Shown here piece by piece: positions 6,410 through 41,540 of a stretch of 54,082 bases of DNA. The stretch is from Syntrophomonas sp. (lineage in GTDB: Bacteria > Bacillota > Syntrophomonadia > Syntrophomonadales > Syntrophomonadaceae), in contig JAENYG010000001.1 of assembly GCA_016841875.1 (NCBI GenBank), positions 203,247-257,328 of the forward strand, given 5' to 3'. The notes below the pieces were generated by a model. It did not search any database. It had not been told where the DNA came from and saw only the letters and a list, made by a program, of their open reading frames with translations. Positions within the stretch are counted from its first letter, which is position 1, and each line of letters begins with the position of its first letter. Made by a program: the position numbers and the translations under genes.

Positions 6410-6709
6410 TTGAGCCGGGTAGGTTTTGGGCGAATCTCTACAACTTTCCTCCCATATACCCGCCACATTTACCTAGCAAGCTTCGGACGGCATTGGGCTT
6501 CGTTTTGTATGGCAAACTCACCCGACTTGCTTCGGCCTCAAATGTGATTCGTATAACTCGGACCGGGATTTTGCCTCCGGCTTCCTTCAGCCTGTACCCG
6601 CAGGGTGATTCCATCTCACGATGGACACCCTTGCCTTTGGCTAGCGGTTGGGGCCGTCACCCCCCACAGCGGACTTTCACCGCCTAGCTGTTGACCATGT
6701 CGGGCACAC
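6410..6709 (-). mobile_element. Group IIC intron 5' remnant (domain I), no ORF
   Basis: On the minus strand the element begins GTGTGCCCGACATGG at 6709 and continues through blocks I recall from bacterial class C introns: 'GGTGAAAGTCC', 'GCAAGGGTGTCCATCGTGA', 'GGAATCACC', 'GAAGGAAGC', 'GCAAAATCCCGGTCCGAG', and a later 'GTAAATG..GGAGGAAAG'. No reverse transcriptase and no domain V hairpin are visible before the CD-NTase start at 6273, so only about 300 bases of the 5' part survive. It sits two bases after the accA terminator T-run, which is where class C introns insert. The right boundary is approximate. Short ORFs over this stretch are not genes. Confidence 0.75.
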
Positions 6710-24024: not shown

Positions 24025-24150
24025 CAGCTAGAGAGGTGATATACTGATTAGTGGTAACAGTATTCTACGGGAATCAAAACACAGTTCCGGTTGGTAGTCC
24101 GGACTCACCTATTATGTAATAGGTGACAGTAACCTTCCCTCCTGGGTCGT
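24025..24150 (+). ncRNA. yjdF-type riboswitch candidate
   Basis: The 190-base leader of the yjdF gene is highly structured: GGGAA (24069-24073) can close with TTCCC (24135-24139) around TCCGG/CCGGA (24086-24090 with 24099-24103) and a 9-bp hairpin TCACCTATT/AATAGGTGA (24105-24126). Preceding it is 'GAGGTGATA...GTGGTAACAG'. The elements and position match what I know of the yjdF motif, a riboswitch for azaaromatic compounds found upstream of DUF2992 genes. It has not been compared with the family covariance model. Confidence 0.65.
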
Positions 24151-24187
24151 CCATTTCCCGTTTGGTATTTTCTCAAGGAGGGATTTT

Positions 24188-24894: not shown

Positions 24895-25845
24895 ATGCTG
24901 AATACACTTGAACAAAACACAAAAGTTGAATCCTATGGATGTGAATATTTTGGAAGATTAAAAAGCGTGTTAGTCCATAATCCATATGAATCTTTAAAGT
25001 TGATAAATGATCTTAATTATATAGACTGGTTATTTGATGCAGTTCCTGATATAGATAAATTTCACCAGGAACACTATAATTGGGTTCAACTATTAAAATC
25101 CTATAATGTAGAGATTTTTGAAGTGAGGGATTATGTCCAGGAAAACAGAGACCTCATAGACCAGCTCCCCAACCTGGTTTACATGCACGACAGCTCGGTT
25201 ATAACCCGGCAGGGAGCTATTCTATCAAAAATGTCATCTGACTTTGCCCGTCGTGGTGAAGATATGGTAGTAAAAGAAGCCCTTCTCAATCTCGGCATAC
25301 CGATATTCTGGGAATTTCCCAGCCAGGGACAATTTGAAGGCTGTCTGCTGCTATCCCCTGAAACCGTTTTGGTGGCTGATACCGAACGACACCATCCCCG
25401 GGCTATCGAGAAGTTAATCCCGCATATACTAACGTTATTTAAAGAGATAATATACTTGAAGATTCCCCAAAGACGCCGTTTCATGCATCCCGATACAGTT
25501 TATAACCGAATATCCGAAGACCTGGCTCTGGTATACCTTCCAGCTATTCTTGAAGCACAGTATATTACTAATGAAAAACGTATTGTCATTGAGGATTTCG
25601 ATGATTTTATGTATATGCGTGGTATTGAATTATTAAACATATCTTCGGAAGAACAATTAAGGTTTGGATGTACTTTCGTGCCTTTGCAGCCAGGTATAAT
25701 ATTCCATTACGATACTGCCCTGAAACCTGAGACCAAAAAGAAATTGCATCGCAGAGGCGTAGAAATAATTGAATTTCACCCAGAAGCTCTGCTATCGGGC
25801 GGAGGAAGTCTGCGCTGCATAACACTTCGCTTGCGGCGTGAATAA
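24895..25845 (+). CDS. Arginine deiminase-superfamily protein, variant active site
   Basis: A 316-residue member of the guanidino-modifying superfamily: 'LPNLVYMHDSSVI', 'MHPDTVYNRISEDLALVY' with H198 and D200, and the nucleophile C308 in GGGSLRCITLRLRRE all align with arginine deiminase. The usual EGGD, whose Asp grips the guanidinium group, reads E-G-C-L (C150), and the LPN(x)nRD element has His for Arg. Substrate may therefore differ from arginine. No arcB, arcC or antiporter gene is nearby. AAGGAG lies 9 bases before the ATG, and a 280-base gap with the yjdF terminator isolates it. Confidence 0.85.
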   Translation: MLNTLEQNTKVESYGCEYFGRLKSVLVHNPYESLKLINDLNYIDWLFDAVPDIDKFHQEHYNWVQLLKSYNVEIFEVRDYVQENRDLIDQLPNLVYMHDSSVITRQGAILSKMSSDFARRGEDMVVKEALLNLGIPIFWEFPSQGQFEGCLLLSPETVLVADTERHHPRAIEKLIPHILTLFKEIIYLKIPQRRRFMHPDTVYNRISEDLALVYLPAILEAQYITNEKRIVIEDFDDFMYMRGIELLNISSEEQLRFGCTFVPLQPGIIFHYDTALKPETKKKLHRRGVEIIEFHPEALLSGGGSLRCITLRLRRE

Positions 25846-29665: not shown

Positions 29666-30094
29666 GTGATAATTGTTGTAATAGACGGTCAGGGAGGAGG
29701 AATAGGGCGGGTCATTGTGGAAAAGCTGCGTCATGAACTGGGGCAGGAATGCAGTATAATAGGACTGGGTACCAACGCGGTAGCTACCTCCATAATGTTA
29801 AAAGCAGGCGCCAACGAAGGAGCCAGTGGAGAAAATGCAGTTGTAAGAACGGTTACCCGAGCTAATATGATAGTTGGCTCAGTAGCTATTCTGGCGGCTA
29901 ACTCCTATTCTGGAGAACTTACGCCTGCCATGGCAGAAGCAGTTGCATCTTCATCGGCACTCAAAGTACTGATTCCCCTTAACCGTTGTGGTATAGAGCT
30001 AACCGGCGCTGTGGACGAACCCCTGCCGATGCAGGTAGATCGTTTGGTAAGCAGAGTAAGAGAAATATTTGATAAGCAGAAGTACTTAAAATAA
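29666..30094 (+). CDS. DUF3842 family protein
   Basis: A 142-residue protein with a Rossmann-like glycine start 'VVIDGQGGGIGRVIVEKL', then 'LGTNAVATSIMLKAGANEGASGENAVVR', and 'DEPLPMQVDRLV' near the end, matching DUF3842. The function is not known; the GQGGGIG loop suggests a nucleotide. It starts at GTG with GGGGGG upstream. It is the first gene of a three-gene unit with FmdE and the CooT fusion, spaced by 22 and 2 bases, hinting at a shared task in metal or cofactor handling. Confidence 0.85.
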   Translation: MIIVVIDGQGGGIGRVIVEKLRHELGQECSIIGLGTNAVATSIMLKAGANEGASGENAVVRTVTRANMIVGSVAILAANSYSGELTPAMAEAVASSSALKVLIPLNRCGIELTGAVDEPLPMQVDRLVSRVREIFDKQKYLK

Positions 30095-30116: not shown

Positions 30117-30719
30117 ATGTGCAGGGATATGCCTCCCCTGGAACTAGCCATACAATTTCACGGTCATATATGTCCTGGACTCTTAATGGGAGTTAGGGCA
30201 TCCGAATTTGCTATCCAACACCTGCAATTAGAAAGGGATAGGGATGAGGAACTGCTGGCGGTAGTGGAGACTAATTCGTGCGGAGTTGATGCTATCCAAT
30301 CAATACTGGGCTGCACCTTTGGAAAAGGTAATCTTATTTTTAAAGACTATGGTAAAGCAGTATATACTATTGCCAGCAGAGATAAAGGTAAAGCCATACG
30401 CATAGCACAGAAATTTAATGCCAACCGCAATCCTTTATTTAATCGTTATCGGGAGCTTAATATCAAGGATCACTTAACTCCTGAAGAGAAGACCGAACAG
30501 GAGAATTTATTGGGACAGGTTTTTGAGAGCATTATGACCGCTCCCTTTGAAGATATTTTTGAATGGCATGAGATAGAATTTGATTTTCCTGAAAAAGCTG
30601 AAATCCGCAAAACCCTGCAGTGTTCAGTTTGTGGTGAAGGAGTCATGGATGCACGCGCAGTTACAACCGAACCTGGGGTTGTCTGCCCAACCTGCTATAT
30701 TGATCAAGGAGGCGAATAA
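30117..30719 (+). CDS. FmdE family protein with zinc ribbon
   Basis: A 200-residue FmdE-domain protein ('FHGHICPGLLMGVRASEFA', with conserved His and Cys, then 'VETNSCGVDAIQSILGCTFGKGNL') and a C-terminal zinc ribbon (CSVC..CPTC, about residues 171-193). FmdE proteins are named from formylmethanofuran dehydrogenase gene clusters (Mo/W enzymes) but occur widely in non-methanogens, where the role is unclear; metal or cofactor handling is often suggested. It precedes the CooT fusion by two bases, so the two are probably coupled. Confidence 0.9.
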   Translation: MCRDMPPLELAIQFHGHICPGLLMGVRASEFAIQHLQLERDRDEELLAVVETNSCGVDAIQSILGCTFGKGNLIFKDYGKAVYTIASRDKGKAIRIAQKFNANRNPLFNRYRELNIKDHLTPEEKTEQENLLGQVFESIMTAPFEDIFEWHEIEFDFPEKAEIRKTLQCSVCGEGVMDARAVTTEPGVVCPTCYIDQGGE

Positions 30720-30721
30720 AC

Positions 30722-31522
30722 ATGTGTGAAGCTAATGTTTATATTAATCGCAATGGCAAAGAGGAACTGCTGATGGAAAAAGTTGACCGTATGATTCCCG
30801 GAGATGAGAATAATATTTTTATGGAGAGCATATTTGGCGAGCGCAGAGTTATCCAGGCTAGAATCAAGGAAATGCAGCTCGTGCATCATCGTATCATACT
30901 AGAAGAGATTAAAACCGCAGCAGAGTTCCAAGAACAGGAAATATGGCTGACCCTGGATACCGAACACGGACACTTTCATGACGGCGAAGAAATTAGGTTA
31001 AATCTCTTTAACGGATATAACATGAAAGTCAACCAGGACCATGTCTTCTCCCATCCCCAGGTATCCATGCTGCAGCACGGCCAAACGAGAGAATGTCCAG
31101 TGCAGATAAACGAAGGTATAGTTGAAGTCAACCTCGGTGAAGAAGCAGATGGTTTGATGCAAGTGTATGCCCACGAAAGCGGAGATAAAGAACTCTACGC
31201 CAAAATATTCTTAGAAGTAGGCCACCATCATCATCATGGGGTAGAACCAGTAGGGCTGCCGCTTGAAATTATACCCAGTAATTATCAACATGCCCGGATG
31301 GGGGAAAACTATGAAATTCAGGTATTGAAAAATGGTCTCCCACTTGCAGGAGCAAAAGTCAAGTCTACTTATGCCGGAACCAGCAATCATGATTATCCTC
31401 ATCACCTGGTAACTGATGAAGACGGCAAGACCAGTTTATTCCTGACCGCTCGTGGTAATTACCTGTTTTCAGTGGCTGATGGAGAAATAATCAGCACGTT
31501 TACTCTCACCAAGAGTTTTTAG
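30722..31522 (+). CDS. CooT-DUF4198 fusion, His-rich nickel-handling candidate
   Basis: A 266-residue fusion. Residues 1-62 are a CooT domain (starts MCEANVYI with the nickel-ligand Cys2; 'SIFGERRVIQARIKEM'). About residues 75-266 resemble DUF4198/NikM-type proteins ('VGLPLEIIPSN', 'LPLAGAKVKSTYAG', 'VTDEDGKTSLFLT'). Histidines cluster at 82-86 (HGHFH), 107-119 and 168-172 (five in a row). DUF4198 proteins are usually exported; this one has no signal peptide and Cys2 must be near the N-terminus, so it is probably cytoplasmic. Next operon is the [NiFe] hydrogenase set. A nickel buffer or donor for HypA/HypB is the likely role, by inference. Confidence 0.85.
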   Translation: MCEANVYINRNGKEELLMEKVDRMIPGDENNIFMESIFGERRVIQARIKEMQLVHHRIILEEIKTAAEFQEQEIWLTLDTEHGHFHDGEEIRLNLFNGYNMKVNQDHVFSHPQVSMLQHGQTRECPVQINEGIVEVNLGEEADGLMQVYAHESGDKELYAKIFLEVGHHHHHGVEPVGLPLEIIPSNYQHARMGENYEIQVLKNGLPLAGAKVKSTYAGTSNHDYPHHLVTDEDGKTSLFLTARGNYLFSVADGEIISTFTLTKSF

Positions 31523-31749
31523 TAGTTAATTTAACTATTTCAATGTTTTTACTGTATTTTATGTCTATATATGTCTATATATGTCTACATAGAGGAGTAT
31601 TGATTTATATGTAGAATATAAGCGTATCTGATAATGCTATATTTGCCTATTGATAAGACTATCAAAAATGCGAGTGGTAGTATATAATTACTGTAGTTTA
31701 TTCAGATAAAGGAGTTTATTTGTAATCGGATTGGAAAATAGAATATTTT

Positions 31750-31910
31750 TCTCCGAGTTCCATGACCTACGGCTAATGGCTATGGTTTTAGGAACCTGGG
31801 TATGACTGGAAACGGTCTTGCCTTCCCCTATTGTGAAAAGGAGATGCTCAGGTCAAGCAGATCATAAAAGCGTGCTCATGAAGGGTACAGCTGCTATGTT
31901 TTGGTGCGTC
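31750..31910 (+). ncRNA. Moco-riboswitch-like leader RNA before hypA
   Basis: The 473-base gap before hypA holds a compact fold: GTTCC/GGAAC (31757-31761 with 31791-31795), a closing stem ACCTGGG/CTCAGGT (31794-31800 with 31847-31853), GACT-GGAAAC-GGTC (31804-31817), and a TTGCCTTCCCC...AAAAGGAGATGCTC block. The last two blocks resemble the conserved GGAAAC and TGCCTYCC...GGRGATGC core I associate with the Moco/Tuco motif. An intrinsic terminator follows, as in a riboswitch. I am not certain of the class. 31523-31740 holds only AT-rich DNA and a TATATGTCTA triple repeat. Confidence 0.5.
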
Positions 31911-31915
31911 TTAAT

Positions 31916-31943
31916 CCGGCATCTTTCAGTGTCGGGTTTTTTT
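31916..31943 (+). terminator. Terminator in the hypA leader
   Basis: CCGGCA (31916-31921) pairs with TGTCGG (31930-31935), followed by G and seven T residues, 52 bases before the hypA start. Its place between a structured RNA and the operon start suggests regulated termination rather than the end of a gene. Confidence 0.7.
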
Positions 31944-31995
31944 ATTTTTTATGTAGCAATATGTCGAATTTTGTATTACGAGGTATGTTCTTATT

Positions 31996-32340
31996 ATGCA
32001 CGAAATATCTTTGATGTCAAGTATTTTGGACACCTTGCGGGAGAGTGCCATCCAAAATGGAATAAATAATATAAAACAGATCAAATTGGTAGTGGGTAAA
32101 TTCTCCATGGCTCTGCCTGACAGTTTGCTATTTGCATTCGAAGCACTTGGACGGGAAGAACTGTTTAAGGGGGCTGTACTGGAAATCGAAGAAAGAGATA
32201 TCAAGTGTATCTGCCAGGACTGCCAACATCCTTTTTCACTAGATAATTATTATAATTTCGTATGTCCCAACTGTACAGGCCGTAAAACTGAAATAGTATC
32301 CGGACGGGAGCTGTATATAGACTATTACGAGGGAGACTGA
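31996..32340 (+). CDS. hypA: Hydrogenase nickel-insertion protein
   Basis: A 114-residue HypA: begins MHEISLM with the nickel-ligand His2, and carries the zinc site as two Cys pairs (CICQDC and CPNC, about residues 73-96). It delivers Ni2+ to the hydrogenase large-subunit precursor together with HypB. Length is normal. A GAGG site lies before the ATG. The stop is five bases from hypB. Confidence 0.95.
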   Translation: MHEISLMSSILDTLRESAIQNGINNIKQIKLVVGKFSMALPDSLLFAFEALGREELFKGAVLEIEERDIKCICQDCQHPFSLDNYYNFVCPNCTGRKTEIVSGRELYIDYYEGD

Positions 32341-32345
32341 AACAG

Positions 32346-33014
32346 ATGGTACATATTAAACTGGAAAGCAACATCCTGGGATCTAATGAACTCCTGGCCA
32401 GAAAAAACCGAAATGAATTTCAGAACCAGGGAATCCTGGTTCTGAATATGATGAGTTCTCCGGGAGCCGGCAAAACCACTCTTTTAGAGAGAACCATCGA
32501 GCTATTGAATGGCCAGCTCAGACTGGGAGTAATCGAAGGAGATCTGTATACCGATCAAGATGCTCAGCGCATCGAAAAAAAAGGAGTGCAAGTAATACAG
32601 ATCAATACTGAAGGAACCTGCCACCTGGATGCAGGCATGGTAGGTAAAGCCTTTAAAAATCTCCCGGAAAATGATAATCTCGATATTATTTTTATAGAAA
32701 ATGTTGGGAATCTGGTATGCCCGGCTGAATTTGACCTGGGAGAGGATTGTAAAGTAGTGGTGCTGAGTACTGCTGAAGGAAATGATAAACCTTTAAAATA
32801 TCCGTTAATATTTCATGAATCCCGGGCAGTGATACTCAACAAGATTGATCTATTACCATATACCGATTTTAGTTTGGAAAGGTTTCACAAAGACCTTGAA
32901 AATATTAACCCAAACGCTAAAACATTTTTGGTATCGGGTCGTACAAGCCAGGGAATACAAGACTGGACTGACTGGCTGCTGGAGGAGGTGCATAAAAAGA
33001 AAGGAAAGATTTAG
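32346..33014 (+). CDS. hypB: Hydrogenase nickel-incorporation GTPase
   Basis: A 222-residue SIMIBI GTPase: P-loop 'SSPGAGKTTLLE', 'EGDLYTDQDAQRI', metal-site Cys-His in 'EGTCHLDAGM', 'IFIENVGNLVCPAEFDLGE', and 'ILNKIDLLPY'. It powers nickel insertion with HypA. It lacks both the N-terminal CCxxxxC motif and the His-rich stretch found in many HypB proteins, so it should not store nickel itself; the His-rich CooT fusion upstream may do so. Confidence 0.95.
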   Translation: MVHIKLESNILGSNELLARKNRNEFQNQGILVLNMMSSPGAGKTTLLERTIELLNGQLRLGVIEGDLYTDQDAQRIEKKGVQVIQINTEGTCHLDAGMVGKAFKNLPENDNLDIIFIENVGNLVCPAEFDLGEDCKVVVLSTAEGNDKPLKYPLIFHESRAVILNKIDLLPYTDFSLERFHKDLENINPNAKTFLVSGRTSQGIQDWTDWLLEEVHKKKGKI

Positions 33015-33118: not shown

Positions 33119-34177
33119 ATGCCTACCAAACTTAGTCGTCGTAATTTTGTTAAATTATGCGCAGGTGGAGCCGCGGCGATATCCCTGTCAGGATACCTGG
33201 CACCTTTCATGAAGGAAGCAGTAGCTGCAGGTGCTCCTCCGGTTATTTGGATACAGGGCGGAAGTTGTTCAGGATGTTCTGTATCTATTTTGAACTCTGT
33301 ACATCCTGATATTGAAAAAGTTTTACTCGAAGTAATAAGTCTGCGTTACCACCAGACGGTTATGGCTGCCTCAGGTGATTTAGCCACTGATGTAATATTC
33401 AAAACTGCTGAAGAAAATCCAGGTGGCTTTGTCCTGGTTGTTGAAGGTGCTATCCCCGTTGCAGCAGATGGTAAATACTGCTTAATCGGGAAAAGAAACG
33501 GTGAGGATCTTACCTTTTTGGATGCAGTAAAAGAAGTTGGAAGTCAGGCTATGGCAATATTAAGTGTTGGTACCTGTTCGTCATTCGGAGGGATTCCAGC
33601 TACTCCGCCTAATCCAACTGATTGCAAACCGGTAAGTGACATAGTCAAGAATGTACCGATTATTAATATCCCCGGCTGTCCTCCACATCCAGACTGGATC
33701 GTTGGAACAATAGCCCATATATTACTTTATGGAATGCCTGAAGTGGATACATTTGGTCGTCCTACTATGTTCTTTGACGGGATAATTCACGATAACTGCC
33801 AGAGAAGACAGTATTTTGATAATGCAATTTTTGCCAAAAAATTTGGTGATCCCGGTTGCTTGCTGGAATTAGGATGTAAAGGACCTATAGCCCACTGCGA
33901 TACAACATATCGCCTGTGGAATAATGGAGTGAATACCTGCATAAAGGCAGGCGGACCATGTATAGCTTGTACGGAACCCGAATTCCCTGGCTGGCCTATA
34001 TTTGAAAGGATCCCTGAAATGCCGATAGCACCTGGCATTACCGCAACCGTCGATCAGATAGGCGGCGTTCTCGGTGCAGCAGCGGTAGTAGGTATTGCCG
34101 GACATTTAGCCGGTAATGTGCTGACCGGTCGTATCGGCCCTAAGAAAAACCACGATGAGAAAGAGGGTGACGATTAA
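33119..34177 (+). CDS. [NiFe] hydrogenase small subunit, Tat-exported
   Basis: A 352-residue small subunit. It starts with a twin-arginine signal (SRRNFVKLCAGG, hydrophobic core to about residue 37). Iron-sulfur ligands follow in order: GGSCSGCSVS, GTCSSFGG, PGCPPHPDW for the proximal cluster, then 'CLLELGCKGP' and 'GGPCIACTEPEFPG' for the other two. A C-terminal hydrophobic helix ('GVLGAAAVVGIAGHLAG') anchors it to the membrane with a charged tail inside. It carries electrons from the active site to the cytochrome b encoded downstream. This architecture is that of group 1 membrane-bound hydrogenases. GGGGGGAAG precedes the ATG; the stop overlaps the next ATG by one base. Confidence 0.96.
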   Translation: MPTKLSRRNFVKLCAGGAAAISLSGYLAPFMKEAVAAGAPPVIWIQGGSCSGCSVSILNSVHPDIEKVLLEVISLRYHQTVMAASGDLATDVIFKTAEENPGGFVLVVEGAIPVAADGKYCLIGKRNGEDLTFLDAVKEVGSQAMAILSVGTCSSFGGIPATPPNPTDCKPVSDIVKNVPIINIPGCPPHPDWIVGTIAHILLYGMPEVDTFGRPTMFFDGIIHDNCQRRQYFDNAIFAKKFGDPGCLLELGCKGPIAHCDTTYRLWNNGVNTCIKAGGPCIACTEPEFPGWPIFERIPEMPIAPGITATVDQIGGVLGAAAVVGIAGHLAGNVLTGRIGPKKNHDEKEGDD

Positions 34178-35619
34178 TGGCAGAAAAGATAATAATAGAT
34201 CCAATCACTCGACTTGAAGGCCATCTGGCGGTTGAGGTAGAAGTAGAAGGCGGCGTAGTAACTGATGCCAAGTCTATGGGGATGATGTTCAGAGGACTGG
34301 AACTTATTATGAAGGATCGTGACCCCAGAGACGCCGTACAGATCACTCAGAGAATCTGTGGTGTATGCCCGGTAGCACACGGTACTGCTGCAACCCTATC
34401 CTTAGACAATGCTTTTGGAATTGAACCACCACCCAATGGAAGGATAATCAGAAACCTGATATTGGGAGCCAACTATGTACAATCTCATATTCTGCACTTT
34501 TTTCACCTGGCAGCTCTGGATTTTGTAAAGGGTCCGGATGTGCCGCCTTTTATTCCGCGCTATGAAGGAGATTATCGTCTTCCGGAGGCGGTTAATAAAG
34601 CTGCTGTGGATGCATATTTACAAGCACTTAAAGTTCGTGCTAAGGCTCATGAAATGACAGCCTTATGGGGAGGAAAAATGCCTCACCAACAGGCTATAGT
34701 GCCTGGCGGAACTACTGAAGTACCTGATGCTCAGAAAATAATAGACTTTAAGTATCGGCTTAAAGAGTGTATCGATTTTATAGACAATGTTTATATTCCC
34801 ATAGTATATGCAGTAGCAGATGCTTATCCAGATTACTGGGAAATTGGAGCCGGATGTATGAATATGCTTTCTTATGGTGCTCTGCCTTTGGAAGAGGGTA
34901 TGGATCATGTTAAGAAAGAAAAATTCTTCCCCTCCGGTATTTACCTGCAGGGTCAGTATAAAGATTTCGATCCGGCAATGATTGCTGAAGAAGTCAAATA
35001 TTCCTGGTATGCTGATGATACCGGCGGCAATAAACCTACTGAAGCTGTAGTTACGCCGGATGTGGAAAAGAAGGAAGCATACTCCTTTGTTAAAGCTCCC
35101 AGATACAATGGTCAGCCTATGGAAGTTGGTCCTCTGGCCAGATTATGGGTAATGAAACAAAAGGACGTAGTCGGACTGGGCAATAAGGCCTTCTCAACTC
35201 TGGGACGTCATTTTGCAAGGGCAGTTGAATGTTCAATGGTTGCCCATGCCATGGATGAATGGGTTGGTCAATTAGTACCCGGTCAGCCAGTAACTACTCC
35301 TCATGAAATACCCGCATCCGCACAGGGTATGGGACTTACCGAAGCACCTCGTGGAGCACTGGGACACTGGAACAAGATCGAACACCAGCGGACAGCCGTA
35401 TACAATGCAATCGTTCCTACTACCTGGAATGCTTCGCCAAGAGATGGTAAGGGTACTCCAGGTCCCTTTGAACAGTCCCTGATTGGTACTTCGATAAAAG
35501 ATCCTGCCAACCCATATGAAATAGTAAGGATAATCAGGGCTTATGATCCCTGCCTGGCATGTGCAATACATCTCATGACCCCTGATAAAAAGCTGATTAG
35601 CAAGTATGCCGTCTGTTAG
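34177..35619 (+). CDS. [NiFe] hydrogenase large subunit
   Basis: The 480-residue catalytic subunit. Nickel-iron ligands are in RICGVCPVAHG (about residues 59-69) and DPCLACAIH near the C-terminus. The 15 residues after that His (LMTPDKKLISKYAVC) are the extension removed by the maturation protease once nickel is in. There is no signal peptide, so it is expected to be co-exported with the small subunit by Tat. Length is on the short side of group 1 enzymes but the core motifs are complete. Direction in the cell (uptake or H2 release by reverse electron flow) cannot be read from sequence. Confidence 0.96.
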   Translation: MAEKIIIDPITRLEGHLAVEVEVEGGVVTDAKSMGMMFRGLELIMKDRDPRDAVQITQRICGVCPVAHGTAATLSLDNAFGIEPPPNGRIIRNLILGANYVQSHILHFFHLAALDFVKGPDVPPFIPRYEGDYRLPEAVNKAAVDAYLQALKVRAKAHEMTALWGGKMPHQQAIVPGGTTEVPDAQKIIDFKYRLKECIDFIDNVYIPIVYAVADAYPDYWEIGAGCMNMLSYGALPLEEGMDHVKKEKFFPSGIYLQGQYKDFDPAMIAEEVKYSWYADDTGGNKPTEAVVTPDVEKKEAYSFVKAPRYNGQPMEVGPLARLWVMKQKDVVGLGNKAFSTLGRHFARAVECSMVAHAMDEWVGQLVPGQPVTTPHEIPASAQGMGLTEAPRGALGHWNKIEHQRTAVYNAIVPTTWNASPRDGKGTPGPFEQSLIGTSIKDPANPYEIVRIIRAYDPCLACAIHLMTPDKKLISKYAVC

Positions 35620-35630
35620 GGGGGATTTTG

Positions 35631-36263
35631 ATGGTTAAACAGATGGAACAAAGACATTCAATTTGGCTCAGGATATTTCACTGGACGAATATGATTGCGA
35701 TCACCCTTCTGGCGCTGACCGGGTTTTATATTCATGCTCCAGAGTCTTTCAGACTCTTCAGCAATATGGATACACCCCGGATGATTCACTTTGCTATGGC
35801 ATATGTGCTGGTAGTTGGAGTTTTCGGTCGTGTTTACTATGCAATTGTGGCTAAAGACGCCAAAAACGTTCTTTTCAATCCTATACCAGACATCAAGAAT
35901 CTTCCCAGCATGATGAAGTACTATCTATTTTTGAGCGACAGCCATCCTGATTATGGCAAGTACAATCCCGGTCAAAAGATGATGTACACTGGCTGGTTAG
36001 TTTTAGCAATCTGTATGATGATCACCGGATTCACCCTCTACAACCCCAATGCATTCATGGCCCTGGGGGGCAGTATGGGTGGATTGATCGCAGTAAGAGT
36101 AATTCATTATGTAATTACCTGGCTTTTTGTGCTGTCAGTTCTAGCTCATGTATATCTGGACCTTTCCGAAGGAATTCCTGTATTGGTATCTATGTTTACA
36201 GGTAAAATTCCCAAGGGTTTCCATGATAGTGCTCATGCTGATGACAAAAGTATAGGAGCCTAA
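35631..36263 (+). CDS. Hydrogenase b-type cytochrome subunit
   Basis: A 210-residue integral membrane cytochrome with four hydrophobic helices. Likely haem ligands are His in 'LRIFHWTNMIAITLL', in 'HFAMAYVLVVGVFGRVY', and a pair in the last helices ('VIHYVITWLFVLSVLAHVYLD' region). It couples the small subunit to the quinone pool. I chose the ATG at 35631, seven bases after GGGGGG, over the TTG before it. It follows the large subunit by 11 bases. Confidence 0.93.
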   Translation: MVKQMEQRHSIWLRIFHWTNMIAITLLALTGFYIHAPESFRLFSNMDTPRMIHFAMAYVLVVGVFGRVYYAIVAKDAKNVLFNPIPDIKNLPSMMKYYLFLSDSHPDYGKYNPGQKMMYTGWLVLAICMMITGFTLYNPNAFMALGGSMGGLIAVRVIHYVITWLFVLSVLAHVYLDLSEGIPVLVSMFTGKIPKGFHDSAHADDKSIGA

Positions 36264-36275
36264 GGAGGCTGTTGA

Positions 36276-36743
36276 TTGAGCAAAATTGCTATAGTAGGAA
36301 TCGGCAATTTATTAATGCAGGATGAAGGAGTCGGTATTCACATTATTAACCGTCTGGCAGAAATGAAATGCCTTCCAGAAGAAGTTGATTTGATTGATGC
36401 AGGTGTAAACAGTTATGACATGTTAGATATTTTTAGCAATTACGAAATTCTAATACTGATAGATGCTATGCAGGCTGGGGGAGACCCCGGTACGATATAT
36501 CGAGCACCTCTGGAAGAACTAGGTTTACAACCTGACAGCAACATCACTTCGCTTCATGAGATGCACTTTGTTGAGGCAGTTAGTATGGCCAAGTTAATGG
36601 GTTACGAACCTGAAATTCTGGTATTTGGTATTGAACCGGAAGTTATGAAAATGGGCATGGAACTTACTCCTGGGATTCAATCTAAATTGCCCCGGGTAAT
36701 TGAACTTATTCAACAGGATATAGAAAACATTATGACCAGGTAA
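36276..36743 (+). CDS. Hydrogenase maturation endopeptidase
   Basis: A 155-residue HyaD/HycI-type protease: 'GIGNLLMQDEGVGIHIINRL' (nickel-sensing Asp/Glu), 'DLIDAGVNSYDML', 'LIDAMQAGGDPGTIYR', 'LHEMHFVEAVSMAKLMG' with His, and 'FGIEPEVMKMGMELTP'. It checks for nickel and clips the C-terminal extension of the large subunit. It starts at TTG with AAGGAGG upstream, 12 bases after the cytochrome gene. A terminator follows. Confidence 0.93.
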   Translation: MSKIAIVGIGNLLMQDEGVGIHIINRLAEMKCLPEEVDLIDAGVNSYDMLDIFSNYEILILIDAMQAGGDPGTIYRAPLEELGLQPDSNITSLHEMHFVEAVSMAKLMGYEPEILVFGIEPEVMKMGMELTPGIQSKLPRVIELIQQDIENIMTR

Positions 36744-36949: not shown

Positions 36950-39217
36950 ATGCAATTGAACAATGCGTGCTACAAAATGCAGATTAATGGTATAGTTCAG
37001 GGGGTTGGATTTAGACCTCACGTTTTTCGCCTGGCATCCGAGCTGGGCTTGAGCGGGTGGGTATTAAATTCATCTTACGGGGTTTTCATCGAGATTGAGG
37101 GTACACCTGACAATTTAGATGAATTCGTGCATAGAATCATTGAATCCCCCCCTCCCCTGGCACTTATCCGAGAATATACCGTGGAGGAAATCGATCCTCC
37201 TGGTTATGAATGTTTTAGCATCAAGGAAAGCGAAAACGACGATAACAGAAATGTTATGATATCGCCGGATATTGCCACTTGCTATGAATGCCGACGTGAT
37301 ATATCTGCCCCGGCTGATCGACGCTATTTATATCCTTTTACCAACTGCACCAACTGCGGTCCTCGTTTTACTATAATCAAAGATGTGCCCTATGACCGCG
37401 CCAAAACTACTATGGCTTCCTTTCCTATGTGTCCCACCTGCCAGAAAGAATATGAAGATCCTTTGAACCGGCGGTTTCATGCTCAACCCAATGCCTGTCC
37501 GGTGTGTGGACCGCACATCACGCTGATCAATAGCAGACAGGAAAGAGCCGCTGAAAGTGTTAGTGATTTATTGAAAAAGGGCTTTATTGTTGCAGTTAAA
37601 GGGCTGGGGGGATTTCATCTGGCTGCCGATGCCCGGAATCGGGAAGCAGTAGCTCAGCTCAGACAGCGTAAAAAGCGTGATGCCAAACCATTTGCAGTTA
37701 TGCCCAGAGACCTGGAAACAGCCCGTATCTATTGTAAGATAAGCCCTGATGAGGAGCAGTTTTTAATCTCCCGCCAGGCACCAATAGTAGTTATGCAGAC
37801 TCGTGATAAAAATGGGCTTCCCGGAGATATAATTCATCCCGGTCTTAACACCCTGGGGGTAATGCTGCCTTACACTCCTCTGCATTTTCTTTTATTTGAT
37901 GATGATCTGGATATACTTATCATGACCAGTGCTAATATAAGCGATGAACCCTTAATAATAAATAACGAAGACGCAATCGAAAAACTAAACGATGTCGCTG
38001 ATTATTTTCTTATACATGATCGTGATATTTATAACCCCTGTGATGATTCGGTTATAAGTGTTACTCCTCAGGGAACTGCACATTTTTTCAGGAGAGCCAG
38101 AGGTTATGTACCAGGTGCGATTCGAATTCCCACTTCCTCCCGGCCGATACTGGCAGTGGGAAGTGAATTAAAAAACACTTTTTGTATGACCAGAGGTAAC
38201 GAAGCTTATTTGAGTCAGCACTGGGGAGACCTGAACCATTATAACAACTACTTGAATTTCCTTAATGGCATAGAAAAATTTAAAAATATGCTGGCAGTGC
38301 AGCCTGAAATAATAGTTCATGACCTTCATCCAGAATACCAGGCTACCCGCTGGGCCAAAGCCCAAAAAGAGGTAGAACTGATCGGAGTACAGCATCACCA
38401 TGCTCACCTGGCTTCGGTCATGGCTGAACACGGCTTAGCAGGTGAAGTATTAGGACTTGTCTGCGACGGCAGCGGTTGGGGATGTGATGGGGCAGTCTGG
38501 GGATGTGAAGTTTTAAGAGGTGATTATCAAAGCTTTTCTCGTCTGGGGCATTTAAAATATCTGCCCCTGGTAGGGGGGGATCTGAGCAGCAGACGACCGT
38601 ACCGTATGGCCTTCATATATCTGGTATCAGCCCTTGGTGATAAAGGAATTGAAGAAGCTGGAAAATTATTACCTGATCTGCAGCCTGTAGAAAGAGATTT
38701 AATCCTGCAGCGCTTTGATAGTCAGAGCGAAATATTTACTTCTTCCTGCGGCAGGCTTTTTGATGCAGCAGGTGCAATACTGGGAATAAGTCCAATAAAT
38801 CACTATGAAGGACAGGCCGCCATTGAAATGGAAGCCTGTGCAGACAGAAATATCCGTGGCATATATGAATATTCTATTGAGACGAATGCTGATATGATAA
38901 TAATGAACAGCCTGCCCATGTGGTCAGAAATGATCATGGATATTAATAAAAACCTGCCGAGAGGTACCATAGCCGGAAAATTTCACACAACTATAAGTGA
39001 TATGTTTCTTAAAGCACTTATTAAAGCCAGAGAAAATACCGGATTGAATAGAGTCGTATTAAGCGGTGGTGTTTTTCATAACCAGATAATATTGTTAGGA
39101 TTAATTCAAAGCTTAACCGGCAGTGGATTTGAAGTATACCAGCACCAGCAGGTTCCGCCTGGAGATGGTGGTATTTCGCTGGGGCAGACAGTAATAGCAA
39201 ACGAGAGGGGAATGTAA
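36950..39217 (+). CDS. hypF: Carbamoyltransferase for hydrogenase maturation
   Basis: A 755-residue HypF with all domains in order: acylphosphatase ('GIVQGVGFRPHVFRLA', residues 1-95), two four-Cys zinc fingers ('CYEC...CTNC' and 'CPTC...CPVC', about 108-185), a YrdC-like domain (about 200-380, 'KGLGGFHLAADARN', 'KRDAKPFAVM'), and a Kae1-like domain ('HDLHPEYQATRWA', 'QHHHAHLASVMAEHG', 'VVLSGGVFHNQ'). It makes the thiocarboxamide on HypE from carbamoyl phosphate, the source of the cyanide ligands. First gene of the hypFCDE unit, ending one base before hypC. Confidence 0.97.
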   Translation: MQLNNACYKMQINGIVQGVGFRPHVFRLASELGLSGWVLNSSYGVFIEIEGTPDNLDEFVHRIIESPPPLALIREYTVEEIDPPGYECFSIKESENDDNRNVMISPDIATCYECRRDISAPADRRYLYPFTNCTNCGPRFTIIKDVPYDRAKTTMASFPMCPTCQKEYEDPLNRRFHAQPNACPVCGPHITLINSRQERAAESVSDLLKKGFIVAVKGLGGFHLAADARNREAVAQLRQRKKRDAKPFAVMPRDLETARIYCKISPDEEQFLISRQAPIVVMQTRDKNGLPGDIIHPGLNTLGVMLPYTPLHFLLFDDDLDILIMTSANISDEPLIINNEDAIEKLNDVADYFLIHDRDIYNPCDDSVISVTPQGTAHFFRRARGYVPGAIRIPTSSRPILAVGSELKNTFCMTRGNEAYLSQHWGDLNHYNNYLNFLNGIEKFKNMLAVQPEIIVHDLHPEYQATRWAKAQKEVELIGVQHHHAHLASVMAEHGLAGEVLGLVCDGSGWGCDGAVWGCEVLRGDYQSFSRLGHLKYLPLVGGDLSSRRPYRMAFIYLVSALGDKGIEEAGKLLPDLQPVERDLILQRFDSQSEIFTSSCGRLFDAAGAILGISPINHYEGQAAIEMEACADRNIRGIYEYSIETNADMIIMNSLPMWSEMIMDINKNLPRGTIAGKFHTTISDMFLKALIKARENTGLNRVVLSGGVFHNQIILLGLIQSLTGSGFEVYQHQQVPPGDGGISLGQTVIANERGM

Positions 39218-39218
39218 T

Positions 39219-39461
39219 ATGTGTCTTGGTGTACCCGGTAAAATAATATCCATATCAGAAAATAATGTTGCGGTAGTCGATGTAAATGCCAATCAGGTAG
39301 AAATAAGTATAGTATTGACTCCTGATGCCCAAATCGGACAGTGGGTACTGGTCCATGCCGGTTTTGCCATGCAGATTATGGACGAAAGTGAAGCCGAAGA
39401 GTCACTAGCCTTGATGCTGGAGTTACAGAAGATCAGGGAGACCTTTTCATATGAACAATAA
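39219..39461 (+). CDS. hypC: Hydrogenase assembly chaperone
   Basis: An 80-residue HypC/HybG-family protein: starts MCLGVPGKI with the essential Cys2, then 'VDVNANQVEISIVL', 'GQWVLVHAGFAMQIMDESEAEE'. With HypD it carries the Fe(CN)2CO unit to the large subunit. It overlaps hypD by 11 bases. Confidence 0.96.
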   Translation: MCLGVPGKIISISENNVAVVDVNANQVEISIVLTPDAQIGQWVLVHAGFAMQIMDESEAEESLALMLELQKIRETFSYEQ

Positions 39462-40533
39462 TAAAGCTATCATGCAGGACATGATAAGAGAGATCCAGGC
39501 CGAGACTCAGAGTATTTCCATGATGGAAGTATGTGGAACTCATACTATGGCTATCGCTAAAAGTGGCATCCGAGATCTGCTGCCAGACAACATTAAACTT
39601 ATTTCTGGACCTGGATGTCCGGTGTGTGTAACTGCTCAGGGGGATATTGATGCAGTAATTGAGCTGGTAAATCAGCAGGATCTTATTCTGGCTACCTTCG
39701 GGGATATGATGAGAGTACCTGGTACCAGCTCTTCACTGCAGGAAGCCAGAGGAAAAGGTGCGGACATCCGAGTTGTATATTCCCCTATGGACGCTGTAGA
39801 AATGGCCAGAAATTACCCCACCCGGGAAGTGGTTTTTCTAGGCATAGGTTTTGAGACTACTGCTCCACCGGTTGGAGCCAGCATCGAGGCAGCCCGGGCT
39901 ATGCAGACAAAAAATTATTCCGTTCTTTCCCTGCACAAACTGGTCCCCCCGGCTCTGGAAGTCATATTTTCCGATCCTGATATTAAGGTGGATGCCCTTA
40001 TTTGCCCGGGGCATGTTTCACTGGTCATAGGTTTGGACCCCTATCGAGAACTGGCTGAAAAATATCACAAGCCCTGTGTTATAACCGGCTTTGATAACGC
40101 AGATATACTACAGGGTATACTGATGATACTGCTGCAATTCAAACAGAAGCAGGCCCGGGCTGAAATACAATATCGCCGGGCAGTAAAAGAAAAAGGGAAT
40201 CCAGTGGCACAAAATGTATTAAAACGTGTTTTCAAAGAAGTGGATACTCGCTGGCGCGGTCTGGGTGAAATACCCGGCAGCGGCCTGGAGATAAGCGATG
40301 AGTACAGCGCCTATAATGCCCGTCATAGATTTGATATACCAGATATCGAGGATATCCCTATTAAAGGCTGTTCCTGCGGCGAAATATTGACCGGCAAAAT
40401 ATCTCCTCACGACTGCCCTCTATTTGGCAGCGCATGCAATCCATTAAATCCTATCGGCCCCTGCATGGTTTCTCATGAGGGTGCCTGTGCCGCTTATTAT
40501 AGATACACTCCATTGAGAGGAGAAATTAGATGA
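39451..40533 (+). CDS. hypD: Fe(CN)2CO scaffold protein
   Basis: A 360-residue HypD with its conserved blocks: 'MEVCGTHTMAIAKSGIRDLLP', 'GPGCPVCVT', 'TFGDMMRVPGTSSSL', 'GIGFETTAPP', 'CPGHVSLVIG', and a C-terminal Cys-rich region for its [4Fe-4S] cluster ('GCSCGEIL', 'CPLFGSACNPLNPIGPCMVS'). It is the platform where iron receives its CO and cyanide ligands. It overlaps hypC and hypE. Confidence 0.97.
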   Translation: MNNNKAIMQDMIREIQAETQSISMMEVCGTHTMAIAKSGIRDLLPDNIKLISGPGCPVCVTAQGDIDAVIELVNQQDLILATFGDMMRVPGTSSSLQEARGKGADIRVVYSPMDAVEMARNYPTREVVFLGIGFETTAPPVGASIEAARAMQTKNYSVLSLHKLVPPALEVIFSDPDIKVDALICPGHVSLVIGLDPYRELAEKYHKPCVITGFDNADILQGILMILLQFKQKQARAEIQYRRAVKEKGNPVAQNVLKRVFKEVDTRWRGLGEIPGSGLEISDEYSAYNARHRFDIPDIEDIPIKGCSCGEILTGKISPHDCPLFGSACNPLNPIGPCMVSHEGACAAYYRYTPLRGEIR

Positions 40534-41540
40534 AAACAGACAGAATATTAATGGCTCATGGAAGCGGGGGCTTAATGAGCCAGCAGCTGATAGATGAAGT
40601 ATTTAAAAAAGCCTGGCGTAATCCTTATCTAGATCCCATGATGGATGGTGCTCTGCTGGAACTCCCTCCAGGGAAAGTTGTAATGTCGACGGATTCTTTC
40701 GTGATCACACCTATCTTTTTCCCGGGTGGTGATATAGGTAAGCTTTCCGTTTGCGGTACGGTCAATGATCTCCTGGCCTGCGGTGCCAGACCTTTATATT
40801 TATCTGCTGCTTTCATAATTGAGGAAGGTCTTCTTTTAGCAGATTTGAAAAAAATCGTGTCATCTATGGCCGATACTGCAAATGAAGCAGGTGTGAAACT
40901 GGTTACGGGCGATACCAAAGTAGTAGAAAAAGGAAGTGCCGACGGTATATTCATTAATACTACCGGGGTGGGCATAATAAGTTCTGGCATCGAATACCGC
41001 CCGGATAGGATTACCAGAAGCAGCCATATTATTGTTACAGGGTATATGGGAGACCATGGACTTTCAATATTAGCTCAGAGAGAGGGTTTGAGTTTTGGCA
41101 CCCCTGCGGTAAGCGACTGCGCACCGCTTATAAAAATCGGGGCAGCTCTAGCCCAATATGGGGATAAGATCAAATGTATGCGCGACCCTACCCGGGGAGG
41201 ATTGGCTACAGTTCTAAATGAACTAGCCCAGCAATCCGGACTGGGAATGCTGGTTCAGGAAGAAAAAATACCTGTTTCTCCAGTGGTGCAGGGAGCCTGC
41301 GATATGCTGGGTCTAGATCCCCTCTACATGGCCAACGAGGGCAAGATGGTGATAGTAGTGGAAGCTGACATCTCATCCCAGGTATTGAACGACCTCAGAT
41401 TATTGGATGAAGCCAGAGAGACAGCTATTATAGGAGAAGTAACAAAAGAGCCGGCTGGAATGGTATTAATTGAAACCAGATTAGGTGCTAAACGCATTCT
41501 GGGCATGTTAGAGGGAGAACACGTCCCCCGTATATGTTAG
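40530..41540 (+). CDS. hypE: Hydrogenase maturation dehydratase
   Basis: A 336-residue HypE of the PurM/SelD fold ('AHGSGGLMSQQLI', 'STDSFVITPIFFPGGDIGKLSVCGTVND' region, 'GDTKVV', 'MRDPTRGGLATVLNELA') ending in PRIC, whose terminal Cys carries the thiocarboxamide dehydrated to thiocyanate. It overlaps hypD by 4 bases. All of HypA-F are thus encoded in this window. Confidence 0.97.
   Translation: MKTDRILMAHGSGGLMSQQLIDEVFKKAWRNPYLDPMMDGALLELPPGKVVMSTDSFVITPIFFPGGDIGKLSVCGTVNDLLACGARPLYLSAAFIIEEGLLLADLKKIVSSMADTANEAGVKLVTGDTKVVEKGSADGIFINTTGVGIISSGIEYRPDRITRSSHIIVTGYMGDHGLSILAQREGLSFGTPAVSDCAPLIKIGAALAQYGDKIKCMRDPTRGGLATVLNELAQQSGLGMLVQEEKIPVSPVVQGACDMLGLDPLYMANEGKMVIVVEADISSQVLNDLRLLDEARETAIIGEVTKEPAGMVLIETRLGAKRILGMLEGEHVPRIC

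Follow-up and report, generated by a model that had tools for sequence, protein, structure and literature searches.

The stretch of DNA analysed here (the window, 54,082 nucleotides) carries a [NiFe] hydrogenase locus preceded by three closely spaced genes, which encode a DUF3842 protein, an FmdE-family protein and a protein in which a CooT domain is joined to a DUF4198 domain (Table 1). The gaps between the three are 22 and 2 bp, the start codon of the fusion lying 2 bp past the FmdE stop codon. The hydrogenase gene set is complete, with structural genes, cytochrome b, protease and hypABCDEF. Elsewhere in the window we found an azaaromatic (yjdF) riboswitch at 24063-24170 (+), upstream of an arginine-deiminase-family ORF at 24895, and a group II intron RNA segment (RF02001) at 6436-6625 (-).

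Table 1 Genes, domains and RNA elements at the fusion locus, in window coordinates
Feature	Position	Strand	Basis or remark
DUF3842 protein, at the head of the conserved gene trio	29666..30094	+	Pfam 1.4e-51
FmdE-family protein, C-terminal zinc-ribbon-like Cys pairs	30117..30719	+	Pfam 1.1e-41
CooT-DUF4198 fusion	30722..31522	+	266 aa, ATG start; Pfam, predicted model and conservation
CooT domain, residues 1-61, Cys2 invariant	30722..30904	+	Pfam; 50% identity to 6FAN, Z 12.2
DUF4198/Zcp-like beta-sandwich domain, residues 71-266	30932..31519	+	Pfam, structure superposition
Codons for H82-G-H-F-H86	30965..30979	+	H84 and H86 align with Zcp H29 and H31
Codons for H168-H172 (five His)	31223..31237	+	H168 aligns with Zcp H142
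Moco (Mo/W) riboswitch between fusion and hypA	31739..31859	+	Rfam RF01055, 62.9 bits, cut-off 36
Terminator-like hairpin with T-run, between riboswitch and hypA	31913..31945	+	Hairpin scan
hypA	31996..32340	+	TIGR00100, 91.9 bits
hypB, without His-rich or CxxC N-terminus	32346..33014	+	TIGR00073, 6e-82
[NiFe] hydrogenase small and large subunits, cytochrome b, maturation protease	33119..36743	+	HMM matches
hypF, hypC, hypD, hypE	36950..41540	+	hypC 39219-39461 assigned from its MCLGVPGK start, no HMM

A preliminary description of this DNA had recognised a CooT domain with Cys2 fused to a DUF4198-type C-terminus, and both parts of that assignment were borne out. CooT (PF10133) matched residues 1-61 with an E-value of 2.4e-22 and 79.4 bits against a cut-off of 27, covering the complete profile (positions 1-60). 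The C-terminal half, for which an HMM search had been proposed as the check, matched DUF4198 (PF10670) with an E-value of 5.9e-18 and 66.2 bits against a cut-off of 34; this match covers only positions 83-205 of the 209 in the profile, and in the predicted model the fold extends beyond it to residues 71-266. No NCBIfam model matched the fusion. The possibility of a chance open reading frame or an assembly artefact was ruled out by the two-domain architecture, which full-length relatives as distant as 46% identity still share, and the CooT-DUF4198 fusion is genuine. The two His clusters noted earlier at residues 82-86 and 168-172 are read as HGHFH and HHHHH. The N-terminus is hydrophilic (MCEANVYINRNGKEELLMEK, opening MCEANVYIN), so the 266-aa sequence has no signal peptide on inspection; this supports the cytoplasmic location that had been proposed.

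An AlphaFold model built with 36 homologues (mean pLDDT 87, pTM 0.74) contains both folds. C. hydrogenoformans CooT (6fan_C) fits residues 2-64 with Z 12.2 and rmsd 1.3 over 62 residues. Residues 71-266 fit Zcp, a metal-binding protein of DUF4198 type (Z 22.4 over 191 residues, 22% identity), and nickel-loaded IsDUF4198 (9GCB; Z 16.6, 168 residues). Unrelated chains came next in the ranking, with Z below 7. In the alignment of fusions, C2, H56, H82, H84, H86, H168, H171 and H190 are invariant in 36/36. HMMER alignments place Zcp H29, H31 and H142, the residues replaced by alanine in the Zcp triple mutant 9mhk (H29A, H31A, H142A; the construct numbering is offset by 6), on H84, H86 and H168 of the fusion, and the putative three-histidine metal site of the Zcp type is thus kept, all three residues being invariant. 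Crystal structures of Zcp with Zn, Cu and Co are available (PDB 9mhi-9mho).

The resemblance to the characterised members of each family goes only so far. The first 61 residues share fold, Cys2 and Pfam match with the CooT of R. rubrum and C. hydrogenoformans (6FAN), but the fusion bears a second domain of metal-binding type. Its C-terminal 196 residues have the fold of Zcp, which is a stand-alone protein, but they lack the His three residues before a conserved Trp and have an added HHHH loop and H190. This His is present in 0/36 fusions, in contrast to 14/14 signal-less and 10/10 secreted stand-alone DUF4198 proteins. In 9GCB the nickel ligands are the N-terminal His created by cleavage and His18 (PMC12537917), and the His before Trp corresponds to that N-terminal ligand as matched by alignment, not by superposed coordinates. 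The internal DUF4198 domain therefore appears to have lost a ligand that depends on a free N-terminus and to have additional histidines elsewhere. IsDUF4198 itself, which is secreted and labelled NikK, shares domain family, fold and nickel context with the fusion; the signal peptide and the post-cleavage N-terminal His of the secreted NikK type are both absent from the fusion.

Histidine clusters are familiar from other nickel proteins. His-rich HypB is a cytoplasmic nickel accessory protein with such clusters. CooJ is another cytoplasmic nickel accessory protein with a His cluster (PMC6006190). The fusion resembles both in this respect and in general type, but it is not homologous to either, and its histidines are in short internal loops of a folded domain instead of a His-rich tail.

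We then determined how widely the fusion occurs. It was found in 39/63 Syntrophomonadales genomes, a class-wide search having returned the identical 63. Every intact CooT in these genomes is fused, in frames of 248-442 aa (the copy in G031 is broken), and all clear DUF4198 matches are in CooT fusion frames. Elsewhere in Bacillota, CooT occurs as short stand-alone frames in about 108 genomes of a 398-genome phylum sample, and no further CooT-DUF4198 fusion was detected in that sample. Other phyla were covered by a pattern-based genome scan only, which favours close relatives. Since CooT is always fused in the order and stands alone in other Bacillota, the fusion is a trait of Syntrophomonadales within the phylum sample.

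In a tree, the DUF4198 domains of the fusions form one group (support 0.945), whose sister is a set of stand-alone DUF4198 proteins from other Bacillota that have no signal peptide (support 0.999). DUF4198 had been described as normally acting outside the membrane; secreted forms do exist, but the closest relatives of the fused domain are signal-less, suggesting that the domain was probably cytoplasmic already before the fusion event. Most members of the sister group (e.g., L171, L172, L176) share equivalents of H82, H86 and H168 but have no CooT domain and retain the His three before Trp. The signal-less stand-alone proteins, of which we found no description in the literature, are at loci L168-L172, L175, L176, L178-L180 and L182-L185. 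Several of their genes adjoin SBP_bac_5 solute-binding genes, and some are near a gene for a Gate-domain membrane protein.

The gene neighbourhood of the fusion is conserved. The order DUF3842–FmdE–fusion, with the fusion last, recurs: DUF3842 is upstream of the fusion at every related locus with enough sequence, and FmdE lies between the two at 33/36 distinct loci. A CbiM/NikM importer gene is within 5 kb of the fusion at 24/40 loci; within 15 kb, HynL occurs at 22/40 and HypB likewise at 22/40. At least one of the three is near the fusion at 32/40 loci, contig ends restricting the view at many of the rest. The importer genes come in two arrangements: nikM-PDGLE-nikQ-nikO, placed between the fusion and hypA, and nikM-Q-O, placed ahead of DUF3842. 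The typical order is DUF3842-FmdE-fusion-nikM-PDGLE-nikQ-nikO-(Moco riboswitch)-hypAB-hynSL. In the genus of the window the importer genes precede DUF3842; the window genome itself has them on a separate contig. The ECF ATPase beside the fusion has a His-rich tail at some loci, e.g. VHGEGQHVHRYVHN (L006 7298-8236, L011 11133-11909, L018 6499-7314), and this NikO tail is a possible candidate for a metal site on the cytoplasmic face. Like the fusion, stand-alone CooT of other Bacillota is encoded after DUF3842 (18/30 loci) and beside NikM/NikQ of an ECF Ni/Co importer (at least 12/30), the loci being the 30 top-scoring ones (L050-L079) and not a random draw. This suggests that CooT in Bacillota is linked generally to nickel uptake.

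Between the fusion and hypA, the Moco riboswitch and the terminator-like hairpin indicate that the fusion operon is probably transcribed separately from the hypAB–hydrogenase genes; the hairpin comes from a scan that also yields sites in shuffled sequence (3 found versus 2.3 expected). The fusion is beside a complete hydrogenase locus, as the preliminary description had it, but probably not cotranscribed with it. Of 16 related loci scanned, 12 have a Moco riboswitch ahead of hypA. Across Syntrophomonadales, RF01055 copies are found before hypAB-[NiFe] hydrogenase, in tandem at some loci (L002 9047-9167; two each at L004 6556-6985 and L011 12123-12477; further copies at L003, L006, L015, L018, L111, L113, L117, L120 and L123), and the element could let the cell alternate between hydrogenase and Mo/W formate dehydrogenase. 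Neither a NiCo nor a cobalamin riboswitch was found in the window and the sixteen related loci scanned.

The hydrogenase genes themselves showed a further feature. At several loci an in-frame TGA stands in the large-subunit gene where the N-terminal motif would have its second Cys, so that CGVC would be read as CGVU (L003 11655-11657, L004 9477-9479, L005 13602-13604, L011 14957-14959, L132 3017-3019), and further split large-subunit frames are present at L120, L134 and L139-L141. A near-identical hairpin-forming sequence follows the TGA. The codon possibly specifies selenocysteine at a bridging Ni-Fe ligand, as opposed to the usual C-terminal site; the large subunit in the window has Cys, not TGA.

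Whether the fusion goes together with nickel enzymes was assessed in the 63 genomes. Fusion and hydrogenase large subunit were both present in 33, the fusion only in 6, hydrogenase only in 3 and neither in 21 (Fisher p 2e-8, relatedness ignored). Once hypB and hypD markers were counted, 35/39 fusion genomes had a hydrogenase system, and LarA, of a nickel-enzyme family, was found in 3 of the remaining 4; the fusion is thus not mostly a protein of genomes without a nickel enzyme, the distribution that had been named beforehand as contradicting a nickel role. Three or four genomes with hydrogenase or Hyp genes have no fusion, and the exceptions in both directions are mostly incomplete MAGs. Fusion and hydrogenase are jointly absent within several genera (e.g., G014, G018, G042, G043, G051, G052), which favours joint loss over a single ancestral correlation.

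These distributions bear on what the protein might do. A protein that stores or detoxifies nickel without serving a particular client would fit the poly-His loop and the occurrence of the fusion in a few hydrogenase-less genomes (G024, G025, G034), but the joint absences just described and the linkage to uptake genes rather than efflux genes make it a very improbable reading. A role as an accessory protein of CO dehydrogenase (CODH), as for R. rubrum CooT, is scarcely credible. The CooT domain with its Cys2 would suit it, and CODH was also present in 85/111 CooT-containing proteomes in an earlier survey (PMC6006190), but here CooS was found in only 2/63 genomes and is missing from 37/39 fusion genomes, including that of the window, and the linkage of the locus is to hydrogenase genes; on this co-occurrence the role is rejected for most members. 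Handling of cobalt or zinc in the cytoplasm in place of nickel is quite unlikely: Zcp crystals contain Zn, Cu and Co and CbiM-type importers are able to carry cobalt, but the scanned loci lack a cobalamin riboswitch, the presence of the fusion tracks [NiFe] hydrogenase, and nickel affinity has been measured for members of both domain families. R. rubrum CooT binds nickel via Cys2 with a Kd of 9 nM (PMC6006190), and secreted IsDUF4198 binds it with a Kd of 18 nM (PMC12537917).

Because homologues of both domains have nanomolar nickel affinity and the locus is linked to import and hydrogenase, the best reading, to which we give a probability of about 0.6, is that the fusion handles nickel in the cytoplasm by means of two metal-binding domains, acting as a buffer or relay between import and hydrogenase maturation. 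The nickel link drawn in the preliminary description is likewise strengthened by the neighbouring ECF Ni/Co importer, the hydrogenase linkage, the conserved ligand residues and the near-absence of CODH. The CooT domain would probably dimerise and bind nickel through Cys2 as CooT does, and the Zcp-like domain would probably bind it by H84, H86 and H168, aided by the flanking HHHH loop. The fusion would receive nickel brought in by the ECF NikM(N)QO importer, whose genes are usually its neighbours, hold the metal and pass it to HypA/HypB for insertion into [NiFe] hydrogenase; in a few genomes nickel might be passed to LarA-type enzymes. For this relay we infer the metal bound, the affinity, the direction of transfer and the partners. 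Against it stand the 6 fusion genomes in which no hydrogenase large subunit was detected, the three or four hydrogenase or Hyp genomes lacking the fusion, the importer on another contig in the window genome, the fact that Co or Zn could equally be ions for the ECF system and the Zcp-type site, and the probably separate transcription units.

It had also been proposed that the fusion replaces the nickel store of HypB, and the HypB of this locus indeed has no such store. A His store is missing from HypB in every Syntrophomonadales genome examined, among them two fusion-less hydrogenase genomes, G032 and G060. Replacement by the fusion is compatible with this, but because all the HypB proteins examined lack a store, compensation is inseparable from ancestry.

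The fusion might instead be a component of the importer, a NikK-like DUF4198 protein at the inner face of the membrane that docks on NikM/NikQ and catches the emerging ion, rather than a free buffer. The adjoining nikM-PDGLE-nikQ-nikO without a secreted DUF4198, the essential lack of any other DUF4198 in Syntrophomonadales, the His-rich C-terminal tail of NikO and the stand-alone CooT genes beside NikM/NikQ would all agree with such a role, but the fusion has no membrane anchor and CbiM/NikM was not detected in several fusion genomes; we consider it rather unlikely. A more specific form of the buffer or relay can be put forward tentatively, as a possibility that we hold less likely than not: an import-coupled relay that defines the lineage, in which a CooT dimer carrying two inward-facing DUF4198 modules, their N-terminal His ligand lost and their site rebuilt, would accept nickel leaving the ECF importer and supply the store-less HypB, so that CooT would serve hydrogenase and not CODH.

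Both domains were known; as far as the open-access literature shows, there is no account of their being fused, of the fusion being fixed in one order or of its occurrence apart from CODH. The preliminary description likewise knew of no such fusion. We found no open-access paper describing a CooT-DUF4198 fusion, and the co-mention of the two names in PMC12537917 probably refers to the crystallography program Coot. With a putative Cys site and His site in one soluble protein, the fusion lends itself to tests of nickel transfer from one to the other. Views of what CooT does have so far centred on CO dehydrogenase; its constant fusion to a second nickel-type domain in one order, nearly always in genomes without CODH and in association with nickel import and [NiFe] hydrogenase, suggests that it is a general nickel donor.
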